A stretch of 64,000 bases of DNA from a virus: positions 152,044 through 216,043 of the IMG/VR virus record IMGVR_UViG_3300032236_001859; one strand, 5' to 3'. The notes below the pieces were generated by a model. The model saw only the letters and a program-made list of their open reading frames with translations, had not been told where the DNA came from and did not search any database. Shown piece by piece: positions 10,386 to 42,881 of the stretch (its first letter is position 1; every line of letters begins with the position of its first letter). Position numbers and translations under genes: made by a program.

Positions 10386-11677
10386 GCCGGCTGGAGTTCG
10401 GGATGAGAGTGATCTGCAGGGGCATATCGTATGCGTGGCCCTGCACTGCGTGGTGCGCGTGGAGCCCGCGTAGGCGCTGGTGCTTCGTCTTCGTCAGACA
10501 TCGACTTGTACAACAAATAGCCAAGCCCGAGTACGGCGGCACCCCCCGCGCTGTACTTCAGAATCTTCACGGCCTCTGGGGATGTGACGAAATCAGTTAC
10601 CTTCTTGAAGGATTTGGAAATATCGTCGACCGACTTCGCAGTGTCTTTTACGCCGGAACCCAAGTTGGTTACCGCGTCGGATGCCTTGTCAGCAGAGCTG
10701 GTAACTTTAGACACTGAACTATCGATATTCTTCAAAGTGGACCCAGCGTCCTGAGTCAAACTCTGGACACCTCCGAGGGCACCAGTCAATGCCTTCATCG
10801 CCGGAGTGGTTTCATTGGCAGCATTAGCCACAGCACCCGCGCCCTGTTCAACTGACTTCGCAGCACCAGCAGCGGATTGCCCGACCTCGTCCACATTCTT
10901 ACGAAGAGACTTGACCCCCTCGGAGACATCCTGGCCGACCTGCTTAACTGTGCCAGTAGACGTATTGACTACATCCCGAACACCTTGATCAACTGCCGAA
11001 AGTAGACCTGGCTTTCCATCTTTGTCTTGTAGTTTCTCTTTTGTTGTCCCTGCGATGTCGTTCGCCTTGCCTAGTAAACCGGCACCATAACTTGCAGCCT
11101 CTACGCCTGCGGCAGCAGCACCTAACCCTAGTTTTTGCTTGACGACATCATTTATCCACGTGTCCTGGCGGGCACGTGATGCCAGAGGCGACAAGACTGC
11201 GTGGGCAAGCTCTGGGTCTGCAGAGGAAACAGTTTCAACCCTATTAGTGGTGGGGGAGTGAAAACTGAACTCATGTGCACCTGTCTGTGGGTTTAACTTC
11301 CACAGTGGAGATCTTGATAAATCCATTTTGCCCTCAGCGGCATCTCGGAGATGCCGTTGCGCCAACCCAAAATCCTTACCACTCATCCCATGGCGAGTTG
11401 ACTTGGTAGCCAGGGATCCCCCAAGGATCCCTGCTATTCCGGCTTCACTCCCGGCCCCGATTGGATCCTGCCCCGCAGCAGTAGCGCCTGCGTAGGTTGC
11501 ACCGGCTACAGGTAACCCCACTAACAGCGGCGCCGGGGTCCTCCCCACCAATGCACGTGCACCGGTAAGTGCAGGTGATACCCCTGATGACAGCGCATCC
11601 ATTGCTCCGATGAGCCCCCTGCGATCTGCGGCTACCTTTTTAGTCAGATAAAAAAGCATGATCTGAGCTGGACTCAT
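10382..11677 (-). CDS. 431-aa membrane-anchored coiled-coil protein
   Basis: Not recognised. The N-terminus has Gly/Ala hydrophobic stretches (LLVGLPVAGATYAGATAAG and a GIAGILGG segment). Residues about 200-360 are a long heptad-like, Ser/Val/Asp-rich helical region. A hydrophobic helix at about 374-391 (AGGAAVLGLGYLLYK) is followed by SMSDEDE and a Pro/Arg tail. The hydrophobic-helix-plus-acidic-tail ending recurs in the proteins at 24050 and 45155. It overlaps both neighbours by ATGA. A virion-internal protein entering the host envelope is a guess from this architecture. Confidence 0.75.
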   Translation of the reverse strand: MSPAQIMLFYLTKKVAADRRGLIGAMDALSSGVSPALTGARALVGRTPAPLLVGLPVAGATYAGATAAGQDPIGAGSEAGIAGILGGSLATKSTRHGMSGKDFGLAQRHLRDAAEGKMDLSRSPLWKLNPQTGAHEFSFHSPTTNRVETVSSADPELAHAVLSPLASRARQDTWINDVVKQKLGLGAAAAGVEAASYGAGLLGKANDIAGTTKEKLQDKDGKPGLLSAVDQGVRDVVNTSTGTVKQVGQDVSEGVKSLRKNVDEVGQSAAGAAKSVEQGAGAVANAANETTPAMKALTGALGGVQSLTQDAGSTLKNIDSSVSKVTSSADKASDAVTNLGSGVKDTAKSVDDISKSFKKVTDFVTSPEAVKILKYSAGGAAVLGLGYLLYKSMSDEDEAPAPTRAPRAPRSAGPRIRYAPADHSHPELQPA

Positions 11678-13761
11678 GACTGGGACTCCTGTGGAGGCAT
11701 CGGTGCAGTCTGTGCGACTTCTTCTGGGTTCTGGATCTCCGGGGTCTCAGGCTTCGCCGCCTTCGACTTCCGGATCGCACGATGGATCACACGTGCCCTG
11801 GCACGATCAAGATTACGGAATGGCTTATTGATGGCTAGACCCATGGATCCGTAGACCTGTTTGAGGACTTGGTCATGGGGGAGCCACTCACCGGGGAAAT
11901 CCGCGGGTGCCTCGCCTTCACCGAGATGAAAGGCGTAGTCGTAGCCGTGGTACCCAGGCTCCGCGACACCCTCATCAGGAAGAACGCGGACGTTGGATGA
12001 GTAAGGTGCAGGGGCCCCCTTACCCTCGGTGGGGAAATGAAACCGACGGTTGCTGTCACGTCGGACCAATACTTTACCTTCGGGATCCAAATAGACGTAC
12101 TCGGTCTTAGGAAGCAGCGCGGCAGCATCTGCCTGCTTCTTCAATGGCATCTCGGTGTGCGTGGCCAGTACGTCATCTCCGACCCCGCCTGTGAAAAACT
12201 CGGTCTCATCAAAGTAGGTGACCCCTGCGGCTTCAGCGGCACCCTCGTCATCGGGGGAGTTACCAACCATGCAGATCACGGGATCCAGAGAGAACGCTTC
12301 TTCGGCGTATTCGATCATCGCTGGAGACGGCTTCCGGCCGGCGTCGTCTTCATCGGTACAGAACACGATGTCGTCGATCTCGGGGAGGAGCTCAAGGGTT
12401 TCATCATTGAAGTCGAGGACATCGGGGAGCGTGTTCGTCCCCATGACACTGCGGTTGGTTACCCCAACGATGCGGACCCCTGCAGCCTTAAACTTCTTGA
12501 GGAGTTCTTTGACCCCTGGTTTGATCTTCTGGGTGGCCTCGAGGCCGGCGTCGTCATCCCATTCGGCGACAACGGTACCATCGAGGTCAACGAGGAGTCC
12601 TGGTGCCGACTCAGGCGTCTTGTCCTGGAACTTATGGGTTCTCATGGACCCCGAGATCTCCGCGGCATGCTTCTCGGCGAGATTGTTGGTGTGCTTGGCC
12701 ATCGTGAAGTCCCCGTTGGTTGGGGAATCCCCGCTGCGGAGGACAACCAGAACTCTGCCATCCGGGAATCTCCGGACTTCATCGAAGTAGTGGCCATGGG
12801 CGGCCTCGAGATCCTGGAGCGCCTTCACGAAGACCTTGGGGTCCTTGGGGGCATAGATGCGACGAAGACTGTTACGGTACAGTGCCCAGCCGTGATGCTG
12901 CCGGGGCACACTGGCGAGTTTCTTACCCTTGAGCTCGGGATCCTTCTTCGCCATGTCCCTGGCGGCCTCGACGAGTTCGAGGCGGACCTCGTTGGCTCTC
13001 TTGGCCCAGTCGTTCTTAGCAATGAGTTCTTTGAGCCTGGTAATCAGCGTAGCAAAGGGGATCACATCGAAATCCTCCCGATCCGGGTGTGTGGTCCCCA
13101 GTTTGCCGTCATGGACCCCAGTGAAGAAATATGTGCGTTCGCCATCGAATGCGGAGTCATCCCAGAAGTCGTTGACCCCACTTGGCCAAATCGATTCTAC
13201 GATCTCACGAGTCTCCGGAGAAATGATCTTGAGATCGGCTTCCTCGATGGCTTCCCGGATCGCGGCGAGTAACGGGGGTTCGCCGTCATCGATGCCGCCA
13301 CCGGGGAACAGGATGTAGTCGCCCTTGTCGATGCCGACGACGCCATCCTTATCGAAGGCGATGAGTTCGGATCTCGGTCGCAGGAGTTGCGATGGGGAAC
13401 CCTCGTGCTTATCGGGAGTGGGTTCGTTCTCAGCGGCTTTCTTGCCGAGACCCCTGGCGAAGCTGTGATCCCTGCGTTGTTTCGCCAAGGCGGCCTCATC
13501 AGGTTCGACATCCTTGGGTTTCGCCGGCAGCATCTTCTTCGCGTTGGTCCACACCTTCTCCGCAGGAGATGGGAGGTCGTGGTCCTCTGAGGTCCCCCTG
13601 CAGTCGCCACCACTGAACAGTTCAAGAAAGGTTTTGCCCTCGACCATGTGGGCATTGGTTGCCTTGACAGGATTCCCACCCGTTGGCGTCGCCACAGGTG
13701 TGTTGGTCACGGGGCGATCACTACCCCGCCCCGGAGATGGAATCTTGGTCTCCGCTCGCAT
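11674..13761 (-). CDS. NUDIX hydrolase - HAD phosphatase fusion protein
   Basis: 695 aa. A NUDIX box spans about 155-176: GGIDDGE, seven residues, then REAIEEADL; the usual glycine near the end of the box is Asp. A HAD phosphatase follows: DLDGT at 392-396 (motif I, nucleophile and acid-base Asp), TN at 435-436 (motif II), K477 in RKPSP (motif III) and GNSPDD at 500-505 (motif IV). Between them lies an unassigned domain (285-375) and after them another (about 548-655, with RRFHFPTEGKG). GGAGG-type ribosome-binding site in the upstream gene end; TGATG junction. NUDIX enzymes cleave nucleoside diphosphate derivatives and HAD enzymes of this type remove phosphates, so sequential action on one nucleotide or sugar nucleotide is possible. 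Confidence 0.85.
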   Translation of the reverse strand: MRAETKIPSPGRGSDRPVTNTPVATPTGGNPVKATNAHMVEGKTFLELFSGGDCRGTSEDHDLPSPAEKVWTNAKKMLPAKPKDVEPDEAALAKQRRDHSFARGLGKKAAENEPTPDKHEGSPSQLLRPRSELIAFDKDGVVGIDKGDYILFPGGGIDDGEPPLLAAIREAIEEADLKIISPETREIVESIWPSGVNDFWDDSAFDGERTYFFTGVHDGKLGTTHPDREDFDVIPFATLITRLKELIAKNDWAKRANEVRLELVEAARDMAKKDPELKGKKLASVPRQHHGWALYRNSLRRIYAPKDPKVFVKALQDLEAAHGHYFDEVRRFPDGRVLVVLRSGDSPTNGDFTMAKHTNNLAEKHAAEISGSMRTHKFQDKTPESAPGLLVDLDGTVVAEWDDDAGLEATQKIKPGVKELLKKFKAAGVRIVGVTNRSVMGTNTLPDVLDFNDETLELLPEIDDIVFCTDEDDAGRKPSPAMIEYAEEAFSLDPVICMVGNSPDDEGAAEAAGVTYFDETEFFTGGVGDDVLATHTEMPLKKQADAAALLPKTEYVYLDPEGKVLVRRDSNRRFHFPTEGKGAPAPYSSNVRVLPDEGVAEPGYHGYDYAFHLGEGEAPADFPGEWLPHDQVLKQVYGSMGLAINKPFRNLDRARARVIHRAIRKSKAAKPETPEIQNPEEVAQTAPMPPQESQS

Positions 13762-27183: not shown

Positions 27184-30100
27184 TCAGGCGTGCTGTAAGG
27201 TGCAGGCTCCACCGGCACATGCCATCTCGGGTTGCGCCCCCTTGGTACCATCGGTTTCCTCAACCATCAGGGAGTAATCGACATCGCGCCAGTTCCGGGA
27301 TAGACGTTCCCAGAGATGGAGATTGTTGACTTCCTTGAGGCAATACGTCATCCGCTTCAGAGCAGCGACACGATCTGCATCGGGGGTAGATGTGGTCAGC
27401 AACGCTGGGTACTGGAAGTAATTTGTGGCGAACTGTACGGCCCTGCGGACCCAATCCTTCTTGAGTTCGTGGACATGCTCGTAGGCCTCACGGATGGCAT
27501 CGGGTAGCGCGTTGGGATCCGCGGGATACGGAACTCCGTTGGCAAGAATCGAGGCTTCACCGAGCCCCATCACGGTATCGCATGCCAACCAGAGGTTGTT
27601 ACCGAAGGCGTGGAGCCCATCGACGATGAGACCAGATGCAAAGAAGGCACCGCGGCCATAGCGCTCCAGGATTTCACTCTCGGTACGGACCTCACAGAAC
27701 GGGGCCTGGGGATAATCGAGATCCCCTGAGGTCCCCAGGATACTGACTCCCGTGAAGGACTCCCGGTGCTCGTAGATGTAACGTGCGGCGTCTTCCTCTT
27801 GGTTCTGACGAATCGTGATCGTGTTGGAGACATTGTGGTGCAGCCAGGGCTTCACAGCACGCTCGGGCACACTGCCAGCTGCAACCCAGTTGTCCTGGGT
27901 GAGCTTGACGTACTCGAGCTGCTTGAGCCCATTGACCTCACGCCGCGTCAGGGCTTCATCGGAGGCCTCGATGCAGAACGTGATCACCGCGGTGTTCCCG
28001 TTGGGTTCCCACACCGAGCGTTCAACGGCATCGGGGTTGTGAACCTTGAAGTATTGGAAGGGGGCCTCGTTGACGTTGGCCTGGGCTCTGCGGAAGTACC
28101 GCTTGGCGTGTTGAGCATGGATCCCACTCGATGTCCCGAGAAGGCATGACGTTGATCCCGCGGGTTTAACACAGGTCGCCCGTGCCGTGGGCCGGATACC
28201 CAGCCGGGGTGCCAGATCAGCGTTGACATCGAGGATGAGCTTGGCGAGGTCACGCTGCCGCTGGGGATCAAAGGACTGCGAGGGGTTGTCCATCATCCCA
28301 GTCATGGAGACCCCGAGGAGGGCCTCACGTTTCGCGATACACTCGCTGACATTACCGAGGTAGTCGAACTTGGTATAGCCGGCCTGGAGAGTGCCCAGGA
28401 TCGCCGCTGCGGTGCACGCACGTCCCCAGTCCTTATCGGTACGGCAGGCCTTGGCGTTGACTTCACAGAGATTACAAAAGCTCCACCCTGAGATCTCTAC
28501 GTTTGCATATTCAACGACTTCTACGGAATGTTCCCCGTTGATCTCATCGAGATCTTTGTAGGAAATCGCTGGGTACATCCCGGTCTCCACGCAGTTCGAG
28601 ACACTATGACCTCCTGTCCAGTAAGTGTGACTCTCATTGTCAACTGTGATATCATACACCTCCATATCACCAAGCGAAGTAACTGATCGAATAGCATAGG
28701 TATCCTGCGTGCGCCCTGAAATCCGTATGTCGCATGCAGCTGATAAGCGAGATACCTTGCTAGAGTGGATAAACCCTATCAGTTTTGCGAACTTACAACG
28801 GTCGACGCTGATATTGATGTCGTAGCTTTCTTTGCACTCATACACCCCATTACTAAACTCGACGTCGTGCGCCCTGTTAGTAGTGAAATAGCTGCGAATA
28901 CCGAGAGATGACAACGCAGTCTGTACATCATCTCGCAAACCAGGGCTACACGTCTTCAGCGTAACTCTATTAGCAACGACACTTCCATTTGCAGAGTACA
29001 GCCCACGTAAAACAGAACACAGGATATCCTGCCCAGATTGTAAAAACCGCTGTGGGATCCTACGCGATGGGATGGTTGGCATGTCTTCTTGGGTGAGCAA
29101 CGAGAAGTCTTGAACTTTGAACAGCCTGGTGCTCCCACCGTAACCCTCCCTGGATACCCATGGCATACAGTTGAAAATCTCCTGATCGCCCGCACCTATG
29201 TTGAGGAGTAGACCTCCCCCAGCCTTGTGCCACGTGCCATCGCCAAGCAACAACCCAACCATAATGTTTGCATCGTTATGCACAGGGGCTTCGCCGACAT
29301 CCGCTGTAAGCACGTCTATAGATTCTGCCAACCCAACCTCGACCTTCTCCCCATGCTGCTCCACCCGATGATTAGCCGTACCTACAAATACACCTGCAGA
29401 CGTGCGGTATTCCGATACCGGCTTTATTCCAGTGCTCCATTTCCTCAAAACACGAGTCCAGCCCTCGCGGCTCCAAATCACGCTACCTACATCGATATCT
29501 GCAAAAGTGCGCAAACCATCGGGGGTAAGAACAGTAGCACAGGCGGGTTGACAGGGGTTCACCATGAGCTCGGAGCTATCCGACCACACGAACCCGGGCT
29601 CCCCGTACTGGCGGCGTGCCAGCATGAAGATGTCATGGAAGGCTTCCCAAGTAGTCTCACCCCGGATCAACATCGCCGAGTTATTAGAACGCGCCCGCTG
29701 GGGGTTGTCCTGCATCCAGTTCCCAGTCTTCGCGTTCATCATTTCGGGGTCATCAACACTGAACAAGCAAATCGTGGCGCTACGACGAACCCCACCGGCG
29801 AGGACGGCATCCGAGGCGTGCATGATGATGTCGTAGACATCGATGGGGCGGAGGTGGCAGTCTTCACCATGGCACCGGGTCAACGCGGTATCAAGGACCC
29901 CACGAATCTTTTCCAGGGATGCCGAGAGAGGCCCAGGCCCTGGAGCCTTGCCTGCACCCGTGCTCAGACTCGAGCCCTGGTTACGGATGCGCGAGTAATC
30001 AAAGCTGACATGGCTGCCGACATAATCGGAGAAGAACCCGGGGTGCTGGAAGGACACCTTGGCATCATTGCCTGGTGCGGTTTCTTCGGCGAACTCTTGC

Positions 30101-30594
30101 ATCCCGACACCCAGGCATCCATAGGAGGCCAGGAGAACACCGAGGGCATCAGCCCAGCCTTCAACACTGTCGGCAACCGTGAACACCTTGATCTGGTGTT
30201 TATCCACCGCGATTAACTTGGGCAGCTTGGCGACGTGGTGGCGTTGCACCGAGAACCCGGTGCCGCAACCACAGAGCAGAAGATATAGGCATTCCTGGAA
30301 GAACCGGGGGCGATCCGCATAGGATCCCGAACAATTGAACGCTCTGGCCTCTTTCCTCAAGATAGGGGAACCACCGAATTGAAGTGCTCTCTGGGAGCCC
30401 AGGACCAGGCCATCTTTCATGGCTTCCAGACAGAAACTCAACTCGGCTTCGATATCAAACCCTTTATATTTCGTGCGGTGCATTTCGATGACGCGTTCAA
30501 AACTCTCACTTGGTATTTCGCGTCGATTCAGTTCAGGTAAAAATCGTCCATAAGACGCCGCGAACTTGTATGCTGCTAGTGATTGCGTGGTCAT
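27184..30594 (-). CDS. nrdJ: Class II (B12-dependent) ribonucleotide reductase with intein
   Basis: Reduces ribonucleotides to deoxyribonucleotides for phage DNA synthesis. The precursor is about 1136 aa; after removal of the 320-aa intein the enzyme is 816 aa, near the monomeric class II type. Visible motifs: ARAFNCSGSY (N-terminal redox Cys), LLLCGCGTGFSVQ, AVLAGGVRRSATI, the active-site NPC split by the intein (NP|intein|CVETGM), GSTSCLLGTSSGIHAQHAKR, and a C-terminal CAGGAC redox pair. There is no NrdB subunit gene nearby, in line with class II. I preferred the ATG at 30594, preceded by GGAGTGTTAT, over the one four codons upstream. An upstream element at 30627-30669 and a terminator at 27033 frame it as its own unit. 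Confidence 0.9.
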   Translation of the reverse strand: MTTQSLAAYKFAASYGRFLPELNRREIPSESFERVIEMHRTKYKGFDIEAELSFCLEAMKDGLVLGSQRALQFGGSPILRKEARAFNCSGSYADRPRFFQECLYLLLCGCGTGFSVQRHHVAKLPKLIAVDKHQIKVFTVADSVEGWADALGVLLASYGCLGVGMQEFAEETAPGNDAKVSFQHPGFFSDYVGSHVSFDYSRIRNQGSSLSTGAGKAPGPGPLSASLEKIRGVLDTALTRCHGEDCHLRPIDVYDIIMHASDAVLAGGVRRSATICLFSVDDPEMMNAKTGNWMQDNPQRARSNNSAMLIRGETTWEAFHDIFMLARRQYGEPGFVWSDSSELMVNPCQPACATVLTPDGLRTFADIDVGSVIWSREGWTRVLRKWSTGIKPVSEYRTSAGVFVGTANHRVEQHGEKVEVGLAESIDVLTADVGEAPVHNDANIMVGLLLGDGTWHKAGGGLLLNIGAGDQEIFNCMPWVSREGYGGSTRLFKVQDFSLLTQEDMPTIPSRRIPQRFLQSGQDILCSVLRGLYSANGSVVANRVTLKTCSPGLRDDVQTALSSLGIRSYFTTNRAHDVEFSNGVYECKESYDINISVDRCKFAKLIGFIHSSKVSRLSAACDIRISGRTQDTYAIRSVTSLGDMEVYDITVDNESHTYWTGGHSVSNCVETGMYPAISYKDLDEINGEHSVEVVEYANVEISGWSFCNLCEVNAKACRTDKDWGRACTAAAILGTLQAGYTKFDYLGNVSECIAKREALLGVSMTGMMDNPSQSFDPQRQRDLAKLILDVNADLAPRLGIRPTARATCVKPAGSTSCLLGTSSGIHAQHAKRYFRRAQANVNEAPFQYFKVHNPDAVERSVWEPNGNTAVITFCIEASDEALTRREVNGLKQLEYVKLTQDNWVAAGSVPERAVKPWLHHNVSNTITIRQNQEEDAARYIYEHRESFTGVSILGTSGDLDYPQAPFCEVRTESEILERYGRGAFFASGLIVDGLHAFGNNLWLACDTVMGLGEASILANGVPYPADPNALPDAIREAYEHVHELKKDWVRRAVQFATNYFQYPALLTTSTPDADRVAALKRMTYCLKEVNNLHLWERLSRNWRDVDYSLMVEETDGTKGAQPEMACAGGACTLQHA
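28594..29553 (-). other. Intein with LAGLIDADG endonuclease domain, inserted in the reductase
   Basis: 320 aa in frame, from C1 (CQPACATVLTPDG, block A) to N320 (TGGHSVSN, block G), followed by the extein Cys. Block B is TANH at 59-62, block F VYDITVDNESHTYW at 299-312. The residue before the last Asn is Ser, not His, an accepted variant. Two LAGLIDADG-type helices, MVGLLLGDG near 98-106 and VLRGLYSANG at 181-190, suggest a homing endonuclease, perhaps active. It disrupts the NPC active-site motif, so the reductase depends on splicing. The region is visibly AT-richer than the exteins, a sign of later arrival. Confidence 0.9.
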
Positions 30595-30626
30595 ATAACA
30601 CTCCATGTAGTCGTTGGTTTTTGTGT

Positions 30627-31236: not shown

Positions 31237-31431
31237 TCAGAACCCTGACCCCGCAGCGGCATCCCTTGCCGCTGCCCAGGCCACGGCATCAAAGGTGACC
31301 AGGACATTTGGTTGTGAGGCAAATCTGACTACGACTTTGTCGGTGCCATACGGCATCCACATAATGGCTTCTCGCACGTTATACGTGGAACCACCGACAA
31401 CAGGGGTAAAGAAATTATCTGTGAAAGCCAT
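31237..31431 (-). CDS. 64-aa single-module protein, paralogue of its neighbour
   Basis: Begins MAFTDNFFTPVVGGSTYNVR, then EAIMWMPYGTDKVVVRF and VTFDAVAWAAARDAA. Same module as the 30970 protein and the fibre C-terminus. Its ATG overlaps the TAA of the 1122-aa fibre gene (TAATG), so the two are translated together. The 72-base gap after it holds no gene I can support. Confidence 0.65.
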   Translation of the reverse strand: MAFTDNFFTPVVGGSTYNVREAIMWMPYGTDKVVVRFASQPNVLVTFDAVAWAAARDAAAGSGF

Positions 31432-34400
31432 TATGACCTCGACTTCGACGCCTGCATGGCGGTCTCAAAGGCGTTGAGATCAAACCCGACGTTGACATCT
31501 GCGGCATCGGCGAAGCGAACCAGCGCAGGGGTACTCCGGTTCCATGTCGCCACCCAATCCAAGTTATAGTACACGCTACCACCACCGGGATTCCACCAGG
31601 GCATCCCAGATGGCAGCGCGGCCAGGAAAGTTGCACGCGCAATACGAATAGGCGGATTCACTGCACACTGGGGGTCTTCCGCCATCGCAGAGGACGCCAT
31701 CCAGACATCAACATAACCCAGGGCGGGGTAGTCGACATAGCGCTGAACAAAGATAACATTGAGTGTGGTCTGCCCCACGATTAGATCTGGCAACGCCGCA
31801 GCGATCGCTGGGCTTCCAAGTAAAGTAGGGCTACTTGATCTCGAGAAATCCCATTGGGTCAAGAAAGCGCTGCGACTCAGCGTTATAGGCGAATATGGGC
31901 TTCCGAAGAAAATCGCAGTAATGGTTTGTGTGTCATCTTTGAACGAGACAACCCAACGGAGATCATAGACGGCACCACCACTGGTCTGGAGTTCGTGTGG
32001 GCTCCCAAAGATCACGTTGTGGTTGTCGCCTTTGTCCTTGATGCCACTACGCGCATACACCGGGCTACCCGTGCTTGCATCACACCAGGCCACACCGAGT
32101 GAAGAATTACCCTTGATATAACTACTCGAGCTCGCACCAGACCTACTTACCAGATTCCACACACTCGCAGGCTGGAGATCTACACCTTCAATCTTGATCT
32201 GCCCGCCCCGCAAGGTGGCCCCTGCGAGATGCAGCAGTGCCGCCGATGTCAGGGTGAGCGCACCGTAGGCGTCGAGAACCCCGGCATTGAGGTCCACACT
32301 GGATCCCGCAAGCGCCGTGAAGGCCCCCGTGGTCAAGACGACATCATTGTATAGATCGAGAATCGTGCCGGCGCCAGAAACCAGAATGGAAGGGAATGCA
32401 GCGGGGAGCCCGCCGCTGACTTGAAACTGCTGGCGGACCCCACCAGTGAAATCAACTCTGGGGACCCCATTGGAGACCACGGTGACGTTAGCCCCAATTA
32501 CGAGCTTCCCAGTGAACTTTGCTAGGGATACGCCTACACCAGTGTTGGGTGCAGCCGCGATGCCCCAGCGAGTTGTGCCCCCGGTACGCCCCAGGGTGAC
32601 ATCGCCATAAGTGATATCGACGACATCCGCGTTTCCGACTGGGTAATCAAATAAGTAATCGCTACCAGCTCCGGCGACATACGTGTACGTGAAACTGGAG
32701 ATATTGGCGACGACTCCTCCACGTGCCTGGATCTGAATGACTTTGTTGCCTGATGTCCGCTTGGCAATGAGACCTGCGATATTCACGGTGCCGGGACCAA
32801 CGAACTGACAGTCAAGGTTCGCTGCGGAACCCGTGGATTCAACGGTGAGTCCACCTGCTAAGTTGACGCTCCCATTAAACGTGAGTCTGCATAGATTTGT
32901 CCATATACCCTTGAGAGTCATGGGCGCCGTGAAGACGTGGCCAGAAGGCACGGAATAAAGCGTGTTTCCGCTGGGCCCCTCTCGGAACTCAATTGGGCAC
33001 GTGAACACAACTGCAGTGGGTGCCGGCAACGGAGTCGACTTCAGGGTGTCAAGGATCAATGTGGATGCCCCGGCTATCGTACTCGAATCACCCGATATTA
33101 ACGTGGGATAGCTCGAGCCTCCACCGAGTAATCGTAGATTACCTGAGGCCAGCGTGAGTGTGACATTGGTACCCAAGGTAATACTAAGAAGATTCGTACC
33201 GGGGCCTGCCACTGTGATGGTCATCAGCTTCTCGGTACCGCCCATATTTAACACTGTGGAGTAGTTACATACCAACCGAGATGGGATCTTTTGAGAATCC
33301 GTAGCACTGAAGACTACTGTGGCCCCCACACAATCCACAGTCAGGATACCACCCCAGCTATTACTGACATCGGTCGCAGTAAACTTGGAAAGATCAAACG
33401 TGTAGTTGTCTCTGCGTAGTGTGACGTTCTGACTGGCGAGATTCAGGGTCAACCCAGTTTCAACAACCGTAAGTGTGAATGCCCAGACGAGCGCAGAATC
33501 AACGCGGAGACCGAGAACCTTGGAGCCCAGGGTGAGGTCTCCGGTACCGGTAGGGGAATCGCCGCCGATGGCGAAGTAGTGGTTTGTGTTCAGACCGCTG
33601 GCCGTGAGCCCACCAGCAAACGTGTTGGCCCCGGTGACATGGAATCCATTGGCGGTAGCCAATGTGTTCGCAGTGGGCTGGGATACGCAAGACAGCCCTG
33701 CGGAGTACCCGATCTCGCTGCCAATGATGCCCGACAAGTTGACCCGGCATCCCGCACTGATCGACATGATTCTGAACGTGCGAGTCCCCGCACCATTGAG
33801 CAGAGTTGTCGCACCGGTGAAATTCACCGTGCTCTGACCATTGACGTAGAGGTCAACTGTACCCCCGACTTCAATGGCACCACTGAACGTGAAATTCGTA
33901 TTGACCCCAGCCGGCATCGAGAGCGTGGAGGTCGTGTTCCCGATACCCAGGGCCATATTGGTGGCAAAGGTTCGAGTGGTCCCCGCAGTGATATACCAGT
34001 TGAAATAGGAGCCCTCGTAGAGGGACATCTTTCCGGTTCCAAATGAATGTGTGGTCGTCGCCCCGGAATAACTCAGAGAGAGCTGGACCCCTGCTGCGAC
34101 TATCGTGTTCCGGTGAGCCGGGAACGTCGTCGAGCTCGAATGGGTGTAGGTACCACCGTTGACATAGATGTCGTAGTTTCCAGTGACACTGCCTGTCGTG
34201 GTCAAGAACCCCGAACTCGTATTATCGATCGTAAAGTTTGTCTTGAGACGTAGCGGCGCCGAGATCGTAACAGTGTTTGAACCCGAGACCTGGTAGTAGC
34301 GTGAGATCGAGAGGTTACCCCCATTCGATGTCGCCAGGGTCTTCCCACCACTGGAGTCACTGGTGATAGTCAGGATCGTGGTATCCGCGTAAAACGTGAA

Positions 34401-34799
34401 TACCTTGGTACCCGAGTTGGTGATATGAAGAGTGGTAATGACTTGTTCTGCGAAATTATAGGTCGCCGTGGATTCGATGACCCAGCGCCCCGTGGCACCA
34501 TTTAAGGTCATCTCGTTGGAGAGCGCCAGCGCGGTGACCCCTGAAGCCATGACAGCGAAATCAAATGTGGCCAGACTGAGGGTGCCCGTGTAGCCCGTGA
34601 ACACAGCGGTATTCACGGTGAGGTTCGCACTCAACGTGCACGCCGCGTTGTGACCAGTACCACTGCCATCAAAACGGATGTCGTCGGCGGCTAGAGACCC
34701 CGCGGCAGCCGCAGTGGTCCCCCCGATGTCCGTGGTGTAGTTCTGACGCTTATTCGCGTCGGAGTCACCGACTTTGTTGTGCCAGTAAAGAGTGGCCAT
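31431..34799 (-). CDS. 1122-aa beta-helical fibre protein with C-terminal repeated module
   Basis: Begins ATLYWHNKVGDSDANK, a start similar to the 1800-aa fibre (LYWD/H segment), then long Thr/Ser/Gly/Asn-rich strands (LTVNTAVFTGYTGTLSLATF, VTISAPLRLKTNFTIDNTSS) typical of a right-handed beta-helix. The last 210 residues change character and hold two or three copies of a 50-residue module (GGAVYDLRWVVSF..., GGSVYYNLDWVATW...) that also exists as separate 64-aa proteins. GAGG upstream of the ATG. Likely a tail fibre or surface adhesin. Confidence 0.78.
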   Translation of the reverse strand: MATLYWHNKVGDSDANKRQNYTTDIGGTTAAAAGSLAADDIRFDGSGTGHNAACTLSANLTVNTAVFTGYTGTLSLATFDFAVMASGVTALALSNEMTLNGATGRWVIESTATYNFAEQVITTLHITNSGTKVFTFYADTTILTITSDSSGGKTLATSNGGNLSISRYYQVSGSNTVTISAPLRLKTNFTIDNTSSGFLTTTGSVTGNYDIYVNGGTYTHSSSTTFPAHRNTIVAAGVQLSLSYSGATTTHSFGTGKMSLYEGSYFNWYITAGTTRTFATNMALGIGNTTSTLSMPAGVNTNFTFSGAIEVGGTVDLYVNGQSTVNFTGATTLLNGAGTRTFRIMSISAGCRVNLSGIIGSEIGYSAGLSCVSQPTANTLATANGFHVTGANTFAGGLTASGLNTNHYFAIGGDSPTGTGDLTLGSKVLGLRVDSALVWAFTLTVVETGLTLNLASQNVTLRRDNYTFDLSKFTATDVSNSWGGILTVDCVGATVVFSATDSQKIPSRLVCNYSTVLNMGGTEKLMTITVAGPGTNLLSITLGTNVTLTLASGNLRLLGGGSSYPTLISGDSSTIAGASTLILDTLKSTPLPAPTAVVFTCPIEFREGPSGNTLYSVPSGHVFTAPMTLKGIWTNLCRLTFNGSVNLAGGLTVESTGSAANLDCQFVGPGTVNIAGLIAKRTSGNKVIQIQARGGVVANISSFTYTYVAGAGSDYLFDYPVGNADVVDITYGDVTLGRTGGTTRWGIAAAPNTGVGVSLAKFTGKLVIGANVTVVSNGVPRVDFTGGVRQQFQVSGGLPAAFPSILVSGAGTILDLYNDVVLTTGAFTALAGSSVDLNAGVLDAYGALTLTSAALLHLAGATLRGGQIKIEGVDLQPASVWNLVSRSGASSSSYIKGNSSLGVAWCDASTGSPVYARSGIKDKGDNHNVIFGSPHELQTSGGAVYDLRWVVSFKDDTQTITAIFFGSPYSPITLSRSAFLTQWDFSRSSSPTLLGSPAIAAALPDLIVGQTTLNVIFVQRYVDYPALGYVDVWMASSAMAEDPQCAVNPPIRIARATFLAALPSGMPWWNPGGGSVYYNLDWVATWNRSTPALVRFADAADVNVGFDLNAFETAMQASKSRS

Positions 34800-35955: not shown

Positions 35956-37452
35956 CTAGAATTGTTTCATGCGTGGATTCCTGGCGTGGCAAGCCTTGCA
36001 CACCAGCGGCAACCCTTGGAGGCCGATGGCATCGTAGCCCCCTCTGGCAACCCTCGTCTTATTCACTCGCCAATTCGACAGGATGTCTGCCGGGGTATCC
36101 CTAAGGACATTCCCGGCCTGTATGGTGTTCTTGAAGTCCGCACAGCAATGAATCACGGTGCCATCGTTTCGGACGATTAACTCGTGGTCCTGCCGATGAC
36201 AGATCCCGAAGTCACCTGGACCCACGTTATCGGGGAGATCCTTGTGCTCGCGCCTGAGATCCAACCCAGACTCCCGGATCACGATGTGCGAATAGGTTTT
36301 CCTTAACTCCCGTGCCGCAGCGGCGTCCTCATGTGAGTACGCGCTCCAAACGACCTCATCGAAGTCGGCTAGATAACTTGCCTTCTCTGGATCCCTGGGT
36401 ATCAGCTTACCATTGGTCCACAAGTTGAACTTAACTGGTAGCATGCGTTGCTTAATTTTACCAATGGTCTCCAGTACCTTGTCTAATTCTAACAGGGGTT
36501 CGTTATAGAAGTGAAAGGCGATGTGCCCCCGGAACCCCTGGGTGACCATGTAGGCAGCGAACTCCACAATGCTCTCAGGGGTCAACGCAGTGGCCTGGGG
36601 GTCACGTGGGATCTCATTGATGGGACACCGGGAATGAACCCCTGCGAGATTGCAAGTAGTCCCGACCTCAAAGCACAGGTATCTGATCTCCGCGGGGCTC
36701 CAGAGCTGCCAGCGCCGCCCATTGATCGGTGGCTCGATGACCACTGGTGGCGGAACAGGAAGGAGGTCAACACGGGGGTCATGTTTGATCAAGGGTTCCT
36801 GGGGATGCCACCACATGACCTCTGACCACGTACGCCCAATCGTGGATCTCAGGGTCCCCTGCGCCGCGATGTGCTTGCGGACCCCATAGAACCTATGGGT
36901 ACGGTGGAATCCCCTGAGAACTTGATCTGGACTCCTCGCATTCCGCGTCATCTCGATGTAGATCTCAGCCAACTTGGACACCTTGTAGAGGATGCAATGC
37001 GTTCTCACGGCACCACGGACCACGACGAGGTCGTCAGTGAGCGCTGCAGGTGGTACCTGGTGCTCACCACCACAGTAGAGCCCATAGGCGTCTGAGGGAA
37101 CCCTGGGGAGTACATCTGACAGTACGGTGAGGAAATCCGGGGAGAACACACAGTCATCCTCAATGAGCAGCGCCCACTTGGCATCAGACATCATCATGGA
37201 CTCATACGCCATGAGGTGGCTGACATAGCACCCGAAGTCCCCTGGGCGATTGAACCATTCAGGCGGCAACTTCGGCCGCATCAAGGATTGGTCAAAACCG
37301 TAGAAGGGGGGAAGCCAGTCAGATGGGATGACTGCCTTGTCGGCTTCACGACGGAAAACCTCGAGCCGATCTGGGGTACGCCGCAGCGTCAGGACGCCTC
37401 GCCAACCCACCGCTTGTGTCAAGTAATCCAGGGAACGCTCTGGTGCAGACAT
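35956..37452 (-). CDS. GT25 glycosyltransferase fused to a radical-SAM/SPASM domain
   Basis: 498 aa. Residues about 18-225 match family 25 glycosyltransferases: GVLTLRRTPDRLEVF, GDFGCYVSHLMAYESM at 72-87 and the catalytic-type acidic motif LLIEDDCVF at 97-104. Residues about 255-490 look like a radical-SAM enzyme with a SPASM tail: FEVGTTCNLAGVHSRCP, FHFYNEPLLELDKV (the GEP-type motif), NLWTNGKLIP, then CxxDHELIVRNDGTVIHCC, GNVLRD, and a final CKAC. The usual CxxxCxxC is replaced by C268 and C277 eight residues apart, with C261 just before. GAGGTAACCCCGTG precedes the ATG. It probably acts on a glycan or glycopeptide; the substrate is unknown. Confidence 0.8.
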   Translation of the reverse strand: MSAPERSLDYLTQAVGWRGVLTLRRTPDRLEVFRREADKAVIPSDWLPPFYGFDQSLMRPKLPPEWFNRPGDFGCYVSHLMAYESMMMSDAKWALLIEDDCVFSPDFLTVLSDVLPRVPSDAYGLYCGGEHQVPPAALTDDLVVVRGAVRTHCILYKVSKLAEIYIEMTRNARSPDQVLRGFHRTHRFYGVRKHIAAQGTLRSTIGRTWSEVMWWHPQEPLIKHDPRVDLLPVPPPVVIEPPINGRRWQLWSPAEIRYLCFEVGTTCNLAGVHSRCPINEIPRDPQATALTPESIVEFAAYMVTQGFRGHIAFHFYNEPLLELDKVLETIGKIKQRMLPVKFNLWTNGKLIPRDPEKASYLADFDEVVWSAYSHEDAAAARELRKTYSHIVIRESGLDLRREHKDLPDNVGPGDFGICHRQDHELIVRNDGTVIHCCADFKNTIQAGNVLRDTPADILSNWRVNKTRVARGGYDAIGLQGLPLVCKACHARNPRMKQF

Positions 37453-37459
37453 CACGGGG

Positions 37460-39889
37460 TTACCTCGTCATGAAAGTGTAGGGGCCGACACCATCCCGGA
37501 AGTCCCAGGCCGAGCCGACCAGTGTCATCGTTGGCGGTGTCTTGGGGTCTCCTGCCTCGCGAGCCTTCGCCGCGGGATCAAAGTACCACCAGGGGAGTTC
37601 GACGAAATCTTTGGCGCGGATGTTTCCTGAGAGCACGGAGTCCAGGGCTAGATCAACGGTCTCCTTGGCTTTGATCCTGGCCTTGCAGGAGTCAGCCCAG
37701 GCCTCGATGGTAACTGAGCCATAGGCTGCACCGACAACCCTGGATCGAACCTTACCATCGAAGTCCTTGAATCCAAAGGCACCAGCACCAATGGCGCAGA
37801 GTGCACTGGGGTCACGTATGACTTCGACGTCGGCATCGATGCAGAGGCCCCCGACGCCCATGCGGAGTGCTGCTGGCTTCGCGATCTCGTTGAGGACATC
37901 GTGTGGCAACTCGGCGACAGTGACGCCTAGATCGTCTTCATAAAAACTGGTGACCATCGTGGCGGTCTCCGGGGTGTCCTGCCACAGGTTGACATCCCAG
38001 CCCAGGGACTCCAGCAACTCGATGTTCTTGGCAACCGTGGCGGCGACTTCACCCTCGATCTTGGTGCCGATGGCCATGATGTGGATAATCTTGGGGATCG
38101 TGGCCTCATCTGCAGTCGGGGGATCCAGGGGCTCTAAATCGAAGCCCTCGAGATCGGAGAACCCCCCGGCCTGTTTGAGCAGCCTGAGGTACAAGCGTTC
38201 CTGTGGGGTATAGGTGCCCGTGGCGGGTTCCCCCCAGTACCGAATACGCTTGGGTTCAATCTTGGGTGCGATGTGGGTGTCGATGCCTGTGGTCACAATG
38301 GTATCAGCCCAAGTGCGAGCCCATCGAATGGCCTCGGCTCCAGTGGATAGCCCCCAGGTCTCGTGGACCACCGGGGGTTGCAGGCGACGCTTGGCGTAGG
38401 CGGGATCCCAGACATCTGGCTTGTTCGCACTGATGTGGCGCAGCCGTGAGAGCACCTCGGCGTAGCGGGCACCCTGCGCGGGGTTCTCGAGCACCCTGGG
38501 TTGGATGAGGACGACTCTCCAGGGCTTCAGCATGGCCAGACCGATCTCGAGGTCTTCCAGGGCGCGGGGATGCTGAGGGTTCAGTACCCAGTAGTCGGTG
38601 CGGTCCCCGACGGGGTAGCCATCGAGGCGTGGGAAGTTGATTCGGATGACGACGTCATCGGATCGCATGCCGTCATCCCGCCAGCCCTCACCTGCATTGG
38701 CAGTGGATCCATTGCCAACAATGAATGCACGTCGGCTACCATCATGCTTGTCGGTGTCTATCTTGAGGGGGCGTGTGGTCGCCGGGATATTCCAGGCCCC
38801 ATTACGAGGCGGGATCCCCGCGGCGGCCAGCGCTTTGTCCTCGAGTTCGACGAGGCGTTCAGTGGACTTCCCAGCGGGGGCGACTGCGAGCTCAGCGGTA
38901 TAGGCGTCCCAGGCCGCCTTGACCTCGGCGATACCGAGACCAGCGGAGTAGCCCCAGGCGAGATCCCGCAAAGAATCTGTTAGTATAGGGGGTGCTATTC
39001 GAGGTTGTGTGGGCTTCGCGGGCTCCTTGAAGTGGCCATCATAGAGCCCAGCCGAGGACTCCCTGGGGTTCACCTTGGAGTCATTGGTGGCCTGGGCCCG
39101 GGCATCGATGAAGGACTTATAGGGGAACGCGGTGAGCCCAGAGATCTGGGTGGTATTGAATACCTCGAATCCATGGTGAAGGAACTCGACCTGGAGCTGG
39201 GTGAACAATCCATTGAGGTACTCGAAGAGTGTGTTGTTCTTGTCGGCGACTGTGGCATCGACGACCTGATCATGGTTGTACGCCTTCTTGGGATCCATCT
39301 TGAAGTCAGCACCGATGAGGTAGACCCTCTTGAACCCCAGGATGTAGAGGATCCGCATCGCGGCGACCATGGTGCTCCGACCACCCCTGCGGTGATCATC
39401 GCCTTCCTGGCCCCAGTTGATGGTATCCTCATGTAACCAGGTCTTGGCATCAAACTTGTCATTGCGCCGGATGAACCAGGTGTTCGGGCAATCCTTGGGG
39501 GTCCGCACGGGGTGGTCCCGTAACGGCATGTCCTGATAGGCCAGAGGATAGAACTTCTGGATACCGGGATCCAGCCAGATCGAGTTCAGGAAGCGATGGG
39601 GTTCATCGAGGCCACACCAGAGCTGGGGACGCCAGCCCTGGGCAGCATTGTTGACCGCCATCGTGATGATCCCAGGCGTCGTTGAGAGCGCTTTGAGATC
39701 AATGGCACCTGCGCTGGGGCCGCCACAGACCAAGAATGCAGTGGCGCCAGCGTAGGCGTGTCCCAACCAGGCGTTCTCCATCTGTGATGTAAAGAACACG
39801 GCGGGCTGGGAACGCAGGATGCGCCCAGCCCGGGCTTCAGTTGCCGTGATGATGTTGAAGGCATCGTGACGCCCGGGGTGGGTGGTCAT
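37460..39889 (-). CDS. Three-domain glycosyltransferase: MAF-like, GT29-like, GT32-like
   Basis: 809 aa. Residues about 50-250 resemble the 6-hydroxymethylpterin/MAF (DUF115-type) fold: FLVCGGPSAG at 52-61 and GGRSTMVAAMRILYILGFKR followed by LIGADF. Residues about 387-570 resemble sialyltransferase-like family 29: FIVGNGSTANAGEGW with DDVVIRINF (L-type motif) and STGAEAIRWARTWADTIVTT (S-type motif). Residues about 598-800 resemble family 32: IPKIIHIMAIG and AALRMGVGGLCIDADVEVI, with the DxD at 685-687. GGAGTTAAGC ribosome-binding site. It probably builds a short glycan, on the phage particle or on a host surface, which the sequence does not settle. Confidence 0.75.
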   Translation of the reverse strand: MTTHPGRHDAFNIITATEARAGRILRSQPAVFFTSQMENAWLGHAYAGATAFLVCGGPSAGAIDLKALSTTPGIITMAVNNAAQGWRPQLWCGLDEPHRFLNSIWLDPGIQKFYPLAYQDMPLRDHPVRTPKDCPNTWFIRRNDKFDAKTWLHEDTINWGQEGDDHRRGGRSTMVAAMRILYILGFKRVYLIGADFKMDPKKAYNHDQVVDATVADKNNTLFEYLNGLFTQLQVEFLHHGFEVFNTTQISGLTAFPYKSFIDARAQATNDSKVNPRESSAGLYDGHFKEPAKPTQPRIAPPILTDSLRDLAWGYSAGLGIAEVKAAWDAYTAELAVAPAGKSTERLVELEDKALAAAGIPPRNGAWNIPATTRPLKIDTDKHDGSRRAFIVGNGSTANAGEGWRDDGMRSDDVVIRINFPRLDGYPVGDRTDYWVLNPQHPRALEDLEIGLAMLKPWRVVLIQPRVLENPAQGARYAEVLSRLRHISANKPDVWDPAYAKRRLQPPVVHETWGLSTGAEAIRWARTWADTIVTTGIDTHIAPKIEPKRIRYWGEPATGTYTPQERLYLRLLKQAGGFSDLEGFDLEPLDPPTADEATIPKIIHIMAIGTKIEGEVAATVAKNIELLESLGWDVNLWQDTPETATMVTSFYEDDLGVTVAELPHDVLNEIAKPAALRMGVGGLCIDADVEVIRDPSALCAIGAGAFGFKDFDGKVRSRVVGAAYGSVTIEAWADSCKARIKAKETVDLALDSVLSGNIRAKDFVELPWWYFDPAAKAREAGDPKTPPTMTLVGSAWDFRDGVGPYTFMTR

Positions 39890-41141: not shown

Positions 41142-42881
41142 TTAATCGATGGGTTTGAGGTTGAAGCGCTGGAGGACACCCCCAATGCTTGTGGTACGTG
41201 GAACTCTAAGAGCCCAGTACCCGGCGAGAAGGCGCTCCCTGTACCGCAGGGGCTGCACGGCGAGTGGGCACCGCCCCAAGGCCACCACGGGCACCCCAAT
41301 CATGGCGGCTTCGACAAGGGAGGTCGAATTGATGCCGACGACGACTTCACTGATACGCGCGGCTTCATAGAAGTCTTTGATGGTGTCGCGGTTCTCGATG
41401 GTGGCCCGTGCGGACTTCCAGGGTCTCTGGGATCCCGACTTGGGGTGGGGGCGGACCACGATGTCATGGCTGGGATACATCGCGGAGACATGTTCAATAA
41501 ACTCGCCCATGTTGCGGTAAGGGCAATGATACAAGATCTGGGAGTCGTTCTCGATCTGGAGGGGTACGAGGACGCGTCCCTTCTTGGGTTCCAGAGGATA
41601 CTTGGTACGGAGTTCGACAACACCCTCACGGTACGCCTTGAGGTCGGCGTCACCAACCCAGCCCAGTGGTCGCATCAGCATGGAGTCCCCAGCGAAGCCA
41701 TCGAGGTCAACGAGGAATGTTGTCGCCTGGGGGGCCACACCCCACTCGAAGAAGGCATAGGGGATCTTCATGGCCTCACAGAGCGCCTTGGCGTTGCGAC
41801 CATTGTGCTGGGCCCCATTCCAGATGACCACAAACGAGGCCCGCTTGAGATCACCGGCGACCTTGAAGAACTCGGTGTCGATGCCGATGAAGGCGTAGGG
41901 GCGCCCCAGGGACTCCGCCCAGCGCTTCACGAAGCCCTGACACTCACTCCCATTCCACCCGATATAAACAATGGCGCCGTCGTCGGCACGCCTGCCGGGG
42001 GCCTCCTCGGGCTCACAGTCGCCCTGGGGGACCTCGTGGAGGGTTTCCTTGCCCGGCCAGGGATCCATGGGGGCCAAGACGGCATCGGAGGCGCGGACCT
42101 CGTAGCCCAGGGTGGCCCGGGCATACGCCGAGGTGAGTTCGCGCGCAATCCGCTCAGTCCACTTCGAGGCATCGACATCAGCCTGAGTATCCCGGGCATG
42201 GAGAACGGCGATCCCGGCGTGGTGGAGGTAGAACCGCTGCGGTGCCATCCATGGACTCAGGGGTTCCTCGGTGATCCCCGTGGTCTGCCTGCCGAGTTCC
42301 CTGTTGAGATGATTGACCTGGAAGGGGAACTCGGCGAGAACACGCTGGGCAAAGATGACATCATGGTTGCGCATGACGCCCTGGGGATACGTGATATTGG
42401 CATCGACGATGGGGGCCCTGCGGAAGAATGCGGCGTTATACCTGAGAGGAAACTTGCCCTCTAGGGATTGCCGGGTTACCGTGTAGTCACCCCAGGACAC
42501 CGCGTTGCGAGCCACGGCTTCATTAGCCTTGAGTTCATGAGTCCACAGCACGATGTCGGGGTTCTTCTCGGCCTCCTGTTCGAGGACGGCGACACGGACT
42601 TCTTCGGAGAAATCCCTGTCACCGTGCACCAAGATGAAGTCAGCACTTGAGCGTGCGATGAGGAAGTTGAGGGCGGCGCCGGCACCAATACGGTGAGAAC
42701 TCGTGAAGACTTCAATTCGGGAGTCGATCCCGCGCTCCTCCTCGATGAGCTCAGTGGTCTGCGCTGTGGCGGCATCACTGAACACCAAGACGCGGTTGAC
42801 CCCGCGAATCTTGAGTATGTTCTGGAGAGTGGCCTCGATGTGGGGGTTGTCATGTGTAACCAAGACGATGTCAGTGGTCAT
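41142..42881 (-). CDS. Two-domain glycosyltransferase: GT2-like plus KpsC/capsule-synthesis-like
   Basis: 579 aa. The N-terminal 250 residues look like a family 2 (GT-A) enzyme: IVLVTHDNPHIEATLQNIL start and FILVHGDRDF at 82-91 in the place of the DxD motif. The C-terminal half has LVPLQIENDSQI, IVVRPHPKSG and VVGINSTSLVEAAMIGVPVV, the pattern of the capsule-synthesis (KpsC/LipB-type) GT-B fold that carries Kdo or related sugars. Coupled to the 281-aa gene by ATGA. Third multidomain glycosyltransferase in the region. Confidence 0.75.
   Translation of the reverse strand: MTTDIVLVTHDNPHIEATLQNILKIRGVNRVLVFSDAATAQTTELIEEERGIDSRIEVFTSSHRIGAGAALNFLIARSSADFILVHGDRDFSEEVRVAVLEQEAEKNPDIVLWTHELKANEAVARNAVSWGDYTVTRQSLEGKFPLRYNAAFFRRAPIVDANITYPQGVMRNHDVIFAQRVLAEFPFQVNHLNRELGRQTTGITEEPLSPWMAPQRFYLHHAGIAVLHARDTQADVDASKWTERIARELTSAYARATLGYEVRASDAVLAPMDPWPGKETLHEVPQGDCEPEEAPGRRADDGAIVYIGWNGSECQGFVKRWAESLGRPYAFIGIDTEFFKVAGDLKRASFVVIWNGAQHNGRNAKALCEAMKIPYAFFEWGVAPQATTFLVDLDGFAGDSMLMRPLGWVGDADLKAYREGVVELRTKYPLEPKKGRVLVPLQIENDSQILYHCPYRNMGEFIEHVSAMYPSHDIVVRPHPKSGSQRPWKSARATIENRDTIKDFYEAARISEVVVGINSTSLVEAAMIGVPVVALGRCPLAVQPLRYRERLLAGYWALRVPRTTSIGGVLQRFNLKPID

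Follow-up and report, generated by a model that had tools for sequence, protein, structure and literature searches.

A GT25 glycosyltransferase joined to a BtrN-like domain of radical-SAM type in a large phage, with an invariant histidine in the cluster motif of its relatives

The stretch of DNA studied here (the window, 64,000 nucleotides) makes up the final 64 kb of virus record IMGVR_UViG_3300032236_001859, which is 216 kb long. One gene on its minus strand encodes a large-phage protein that joins a glycosyltransferase (GT) to a domain of radical-SAM type (SAM, S-adenosylmethionine, also AdoMet). We tentatively read this protein, at a little short of an even chance, as a two-domain glycan-building enzyme, in which a BtrN-type oxidoreductase with a Cys2His SAM cluster works beside the glycosyltransferase and the product would be a modified glycan. 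It is also possible, although we hold this with less assurance, that its relatives form a clade, borne by phages, in which the radical-SAM enzymes are active and have a Cys2His-ligated SAM [4Fe-4S] cluster, and whose GT partners would make unusual oxidised or rearranged virion glycans. The gene and its parts are as follows.

35956..37455, minus strand: GT25-radical-SAM fusion gene, 499 aa from the GTG at 37455 or 498 aa from the ATG at 37452
36736..37452, minus strand: GT25 glycosyltransferase half, residues ~2-240 (Pfam PF01755, AF2, Foldseek)
37102..37242, minus strand: GT25 core GDFGCYVSH...LLIEDD, residues 72-118, with the GT25-invariant residues all retained
36706..36783, minus strand: Pro-rich linker (...VDLLPVPPPVVIEPP...), residues ~225-250, of low pLDDT
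35959..36738, minus strand: BtrN-like radical-SAM and twitch half, residues ~240-499 (AF2, Foldseek, PDB profile search)
36625..36654, minus strand: cluster motif C268-x5-H274-x2-C277, H274 codon at 36634-36636 (alignment, free-position scan, BtrN alignment)
36496..36507, minus strand: GE motif YNEP, residues 317-320, invariant in the alignment
36409..36420, minus strand: W-T-N-G motif, residues 346-349 (alignment)
36145..36201, minus strand: predicted twitch auxiliary-cluster ligands C419 and C437, with the x17 spacing of BtrN C169/C187
35989..36000, minus strand: predicted twitch auxiliary-cluster ligands C486-x2-C489, matching LCKNC of BtrN

The reading frame contains no internal stop over its 498 or 499 codons, and a GAGG ribosome-binding-like sequence before it overlaps the end of an upstream 809-aa gene. 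A preliminary description, made from the DNA letters alone, had proposed a single 498-aa chain with both halves; the frame is indeed intact, lies on the minus strand and contains all of the motifs quoted there, and the residue numbers given for C261, C268 and C277 agree with the 499-aa count from the GTG.

The same description had assigned the N-terminal half to GT25, and Pfam, alignment and fold all support this. PF01755 (GT25) matches residues 72-118 with 34.1 bits against a gathering cut-off of 24 (E 3e-8), and PHROGs labels the stretch a glucosyltransferase. The conserved pattern GC..SH..Y..EDD..D is present, and in an alignment with 31 other viral GT25s (32 in total) all eight of the eight invariant columns (G-C, H, Y, E-D-D and a downstream D) are retained. 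An AlphaFold2 (AF2) model of this half has a predicted local distance difference test score (pLDDT) of 78, with the final 40 residues loose, and its top Foldseek matches, human COLGALT1 and mimivirus R655, are both GT25 enzymes (E 3e-9 to 2e-8). Judged by sequence and model, this half comprises a whole GT25 domain of GT-A fold, for which sugar transfer is predicted. Distant GT25 relatives diverged too far for their alignment to be used as a search query, and a joint alignment of GT25 with the radical-SAM domain misaligned the halves and was left out of folding.

For the C-terminal half, previously called radical-SAM/SPASM, the first part of the name stands, with a radical-SAM/twitch fold nearest to BtrN, but the auxiliary domain, with four Cys for one cluster, is a twitch and not a full SPASM domain. 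The AF2 model of this half, built from 34 aligned relatives, has a pLDDT of 85.7 and a predicted TM-score (pTM) of 0.86. In the PDB, Foldseek ranks BtrN in complex with AdoMet and substrate first (E 5.6e-11, TM 0.67/0.70, 244 columns), and when the PDB sequences were searched in full with a profile, BtrN was the only match, at E 6e-21 across the whole radical-SAM domain. Further Foldseek matches are SkfB, CteB (5WGG), TigE, anSME, SpeY, viperin, DesII and also MoaA. Residues 255-490, for which a TIM-barrel-like fold had been expected, thus carry the partial TIM barrel of radical-SAM enzymes in both the AF2 model and the Foldseek comparison. The two halves show no match to one another, with an hhalign probability of 0.1%, and they do not fall into one single-domain family.

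Several positions beyond the cluster motif support the kinship with BtrN. E319 of Y-N-E-P is invariant in the 34-member alignment, as are the N of TNG, R401, C419, C437 and C486, while C489 is present in 33 of the 34; R401 aligns with R152, a substrate-site residue of BtrN. Pfam detects SPASM alone in this half (residues 419-489, 26 bits against a cut-off of 21.5). The seven-Cys SPASM motif binds two auxiliary clusters (PMC6231123), and only the Cys of the first are present here, in the arrangement C-x17-C ... C-x2-C with all four aligned to those of BtrN. Because the BtrN auxiliary cluster is itself bound by four Cys (PMC6231123, PMC9012708), we class the window domain as a twitch rather than a full SPASM domain.

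The most distinctive feature is the motif for the SAM cluster. The SAM-cluster ligands of BtrN are C16, C20 and C23 (PMC9012708), and a profile alignment places C268 on C16, C277 on C23 and H274 on C20. As His274 thus falls on the middle Cys, we read the variant as C-x5-H-x2-C with a two-residue insertion. The preliminary description was therefore correct that the usual CxxxCxxC is replaced, but the replacement includes an invariant His and is not two Cys plus C261, a candidate third ligand that we rejected since Cys occurs there in just 5/34 members. C438 was likewise considered as a clade-specific extra ligand and set aside, as the CC pair occurs in several canonical outgroups too. Position 274 is His in all 34 members, whose median pairwise identity is 33%; the His is followed by x2 and Cys in 30 members and by x3 and Cys in four, such that C-x5-H-x2/3-C, and never CX3CX2C, is found in 34/34.

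As our first pattern scan had demanded the His, we repeated it with that position free, and all 22 of the 22 hits that score as family (at least 61 bits) have His. Members recovered through the YYNE pattern instead of the cluster motif have it as well. A chance origin is excluded, because about 36 homologous loci retain the motif. On our reading, two Cys and this His would ligate the SAM cluster. Two other pattern hits, L143 and L145, lie outside the family, one with Asn at the position and the other with His. The L145 hit (5204-5250, minus strand) is in an unrelated 396-aa phage protein in which GYKCNFTGFHPVCP displays the CX5HX2C pattern; it scores 13 bits against the family and may be a chance occurrence.

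Scans of viral contigs with the single protein, either whole or as its radical-SAM half, found no relatives; a degenerate motif pattern did recover them, and the set accordingly covers members with recognisable motifs. By sequence, the His clade is new, monophyletic and mostly viral. In a maximum-likelihood tree computed with the motif columns removed, it is split from the canonical outgroup with support of 100/98 and one state change, although the "derived" status of His depends on our choice of placing the root on that outgroup. The system extends beyond viruses, since L041 and the Anaerotruncus homologue L042 lie on contigs of bacteria, where a GT2 adjoins them or is fused to them. In samples of 341 and 294 genomes from the class and the phylum of two bacterial carriers, true members were found in the carriers alone; the proteins that scored next best (E 1e-13 to 1e-23) are of twitch/SPASM kind and have canonical CX3CX2C. 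The His clade is described by no NCBIfam, Pfam or PHROG model. At one locus (L033, 3172-3996) a radical-SAM-like protein with a canonical-looking CxxxCxxC (CHSRCTTC) adjoins the His-type gene, and hence both types can co-occur.

Members of this clade are repeatedly joined to glycosyltransferases, although the exact GT25 fusion, which the preliminary description suggested seeking elsewhere, was found in one metagenomic genome only. Firm fusions are the N-terminal GT25 of the window protein, a C-terminal GT7-like domain in L010, L017, L018, L023 and L026 (reaching Pfam GT7C in L018 and L023), and a C-terminal GT2 in L042 and L043. Six further members have an N-terminal domain that is GT-A-like on weak evidence, and L020 has a C-terminal one of the same standing. 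For the N-terminal domain of L022 type, sequence searches of Pfam and the PDB gave no match, and hhalign did not match it to the other GT sets; the name GT-A-like comes solely from a weak GT2 match (E 0.07) of its C-terminal counterpart in L020, and we therefore do not class it among the firm GTs. The firm fusions require at least three independent gains, or five with the GT-A-like ones included. Among unfused members, 14 of the 17 that could be scored have an immediate GT neighbour and 16 of 17 have one within two genes, by GT profiles built locally and partly from these same neighbours, compared with 17% of other open reading frames (ORFs) in the same loci; Pfam independently confirms ten of the neighbours, of GT2/GT92/GT17 type. 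In the closest relative of the window protein, L009 (41-43% identity, grouped with it in the tree at 100/97), the radical-SAM gene overlaps a separate GT25 gene, so that the fusion welds together a pair that already existed. At locus L032 (1779-3362) a methyltransferase-GT2 fusion adjoins the radical-SAM member.

We considered the identities of nearby genes as well. From about 31.4 to 45.1 kb the window is a run of minus-strand genes that follow one another closely, and between the large ORFs there is one gap of 270 nt; the run includes the following.

37460..39889, minus strand: upstream 809-aa gene, 7 nt from the ATG of the fusion gene
41142..42881, minus strand: GT2 and capsule-synthesis (KpsS-like) protein (PF00535 E 2.5e-6, PF05159 E 2e-9), in the same gene run
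31431..34799, minus strand: 1122-aa Ser/Thr/Gly-rich protein, downstream of the fusion gene within this tight run, with gaps of 10, 56 and 10 nt

The first two look like sugar enzymes by sequence. Matches to the 809-aa protein are weak throughout, comprising an MptE-like/sialyltransferase PHROG (~157-262), a GT29-like segment (~379-439) and a C-terminal part that looks GT32-like by eye; a homologue was sought in the L009 phage and none was found. The 1122-aa protein has no Pfam or PHROGs family match, but is probably surface- or fibre-like and is a possible glycan acceptor. Elsewhere in the clade (L012, L015, L030, L033 and L039), radical-SAM-GT genes have genes for terminase, portal, head protease or capsid in their vicinity. 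Location among virion genes and the presence of sugar-enzyme neighbours together point to glycans of the particle.

If the protein is the glycan-building enzyme that we favour, two Cys and the His would hold a [4Fe-4S] cluster with SAM bound at the fourth iron, and the 5'-deoxyadenosyl radical made there would abstract a hydrogen from a sugar, or from a side chain that is glycosylated or about to be. The auxiliary cluster, all of whose ligands are Cys, would carry the electron away, as in the alcohol-to-ketone oxidation by BtrN, which is a two-electron oxidation of a cyclitol alcohol with the auxiliary cluster as the likely electron acceptor (PMC9012708). The GT25 half would transfer a sugar within the same assembly line, using or receiving the radical-SAM product, and the modified glycan would be carried by the phage particle or, with lower probability, by the surface of the host. 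A number of observations weigh against this proposal. The AF2 model carries no cofactor, Pfam Radical_SAM gives a weak match to just 2/34 members, and the spacing of the His is not rigid, because four members have H-x3-C. Adjacency to GT genes is inflated, since sugar and GT genes cluster anyway, and the exact fusion comes from a single metagenomic genome. Finally, TIGR04347, a named pseudo-SAM/SPASM family, weakly matches three relatives (best E 2.8e-6), although the window domain does not match it at E<=0.1.

The last of these points belongs to the main rival explanation, in which SAM chemistry has been lost, the fold and auxiliary cluster are kept to serve the GT in binding or electron transfer, and C-x5-H-x2-C binds a structural metal (e.g. 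Zn, or [2Fe-2S]). The absence of canonical CX3CX2C and the failure of the Radical_SAM model on 32/34 members are in keeping with such a pseudo-radical-SAM protein. Loss of SAM chemistry does not, however, predict that the altered motif, YNEP and TNG should be among the most conserved positions at a median identity of 33%, and a specific Cys-to-His change with an insertion of 2-3 residues relative to the canonical motif is not drift; as this conservation argues against it, we consider the explanation rather unlikely. Less likely still, in our estimation, is that the radical-SAM half alters a side chain of a virion protein which GT25 then glycosylates, in the manner of the mimivirus and animal collagen lysyl hydroxylase-glycosyltransferases. 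This would accord with the closest GT25 folds, the protein-hydroxylysine galactosyltransferase COLGALT1 and mimivirus R655, with the many relatives among head genes, with the S/T/G-rich fibre-like neighbour, and with the peptide-modifying SkfB and CteB (5WGG) as the next fold matches; on the other hand, the best match, BtrN, acts on a small molecule, the peptide-binding RRE domain was not seen, and in the minus-strand genes of the window no collagen-like stretch reaches five GXY units. That the two halves are enzymes with unrelated work, brought together by a fortuitous fusion or an assembly artefact, seems very improbable. The GT25-radical-SAM fusion was found only once, but the frame is open through a Pro-rich linker, L009 has both families as overlapping adjacent genes, and the clade is GT-linked throughout. 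Composition is no test here, because the GC content of both halves does not differ from that of the window.

The glycan-building enzyme that we favour can be set against the known systems that it most resembles. BtrN, the butirosin 2-deoxy-scyllo-inosamine dehydrogenase (PDB 4M7S/4M7T), shares the positions of C16 and C23, the four auxiliary Cys, GE, TNG and Arg152, but has C20 where the window protein has His in a loop that is 2-3 residues longer; identity is about 19%, and BtrN is neither viral nor fused to a GT. SpeY (a twitch radical-SAM dehydrogenase, PDB 7WZX) and DesII, compared by fold, give significant matches that are weaker than BtrN; both act on sugar-like substrates. Known GT25s (COLGALT1, mimivirus R655, the lipopolysaccharide GT25) have the same fold and core as the window GT25, which differs by its fusion to a radical-SAM-like domain. 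Both TIGR04347 and the spiro-SPASM family TIGR04321 weakly match some members and neither matches the window domain; TIGR04321 has no match in the phage record. By motif alone, HmdB (CX5CX2C, PMC4389238) has the same three-position spacing, but its middle residue is Cys, whereas that of our clade is His in all members.

To our knowledge, no radical-SAM enzyme is described in which a His ligates the SAM cluster, and we know of no radical-SAM partner in mycobacteriophage virion glycosylation. Mycobacteriophage glycosyltransferases decorate virions (Freeman et al. 2023, as cited in PMC10955285). The non-canonical radical-SAM motifs that have been reviewed change spacing and stay all-Cys (PMC4389238), while the non-Cys ligands Ser of LipA, Arg of BioB and Asp of PqqE belong to auxiliary clusters (PMC6231123). 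Literature that we searched, with most subscription journals outside it, describes no His-clade family, no His-ligated SAM cluster and no GT-radical-SAM fusion, in agreement with the earlier remark that no phage protein with this pairing was known. The clade thus appears to be a new one, of BtrN-like twitch radical-SAM kind by sequence while lacking the canonical motif. If this is right, an invariant His in the SAM-cluster motif would alter how radical-SAM enzymes are recognised, given that Pfam Radical_SAM misses 32/34 of these, and the constant pairing with GTs, often in virion gene blocks, suggests that radical chemistry takes part in phage glycan decoration.

Two other minus-strand genes of the window deserve mention. 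At 27184-30606 there is a 1140-aa protein that appears, by reading, to be ribonucleotide-reductase-like, with an intein-like insert that matches the LAGLIDADG_3 endonuclease domain (Pfam E 2.7e-8, residues 531-611). At 11674-13761 there is a 695-aa NUDIX and HAD-hydrolase protein with a weak match to a phosphoheptose-isomerase PHROG, which may function in sugar or nucleotide metabolism.
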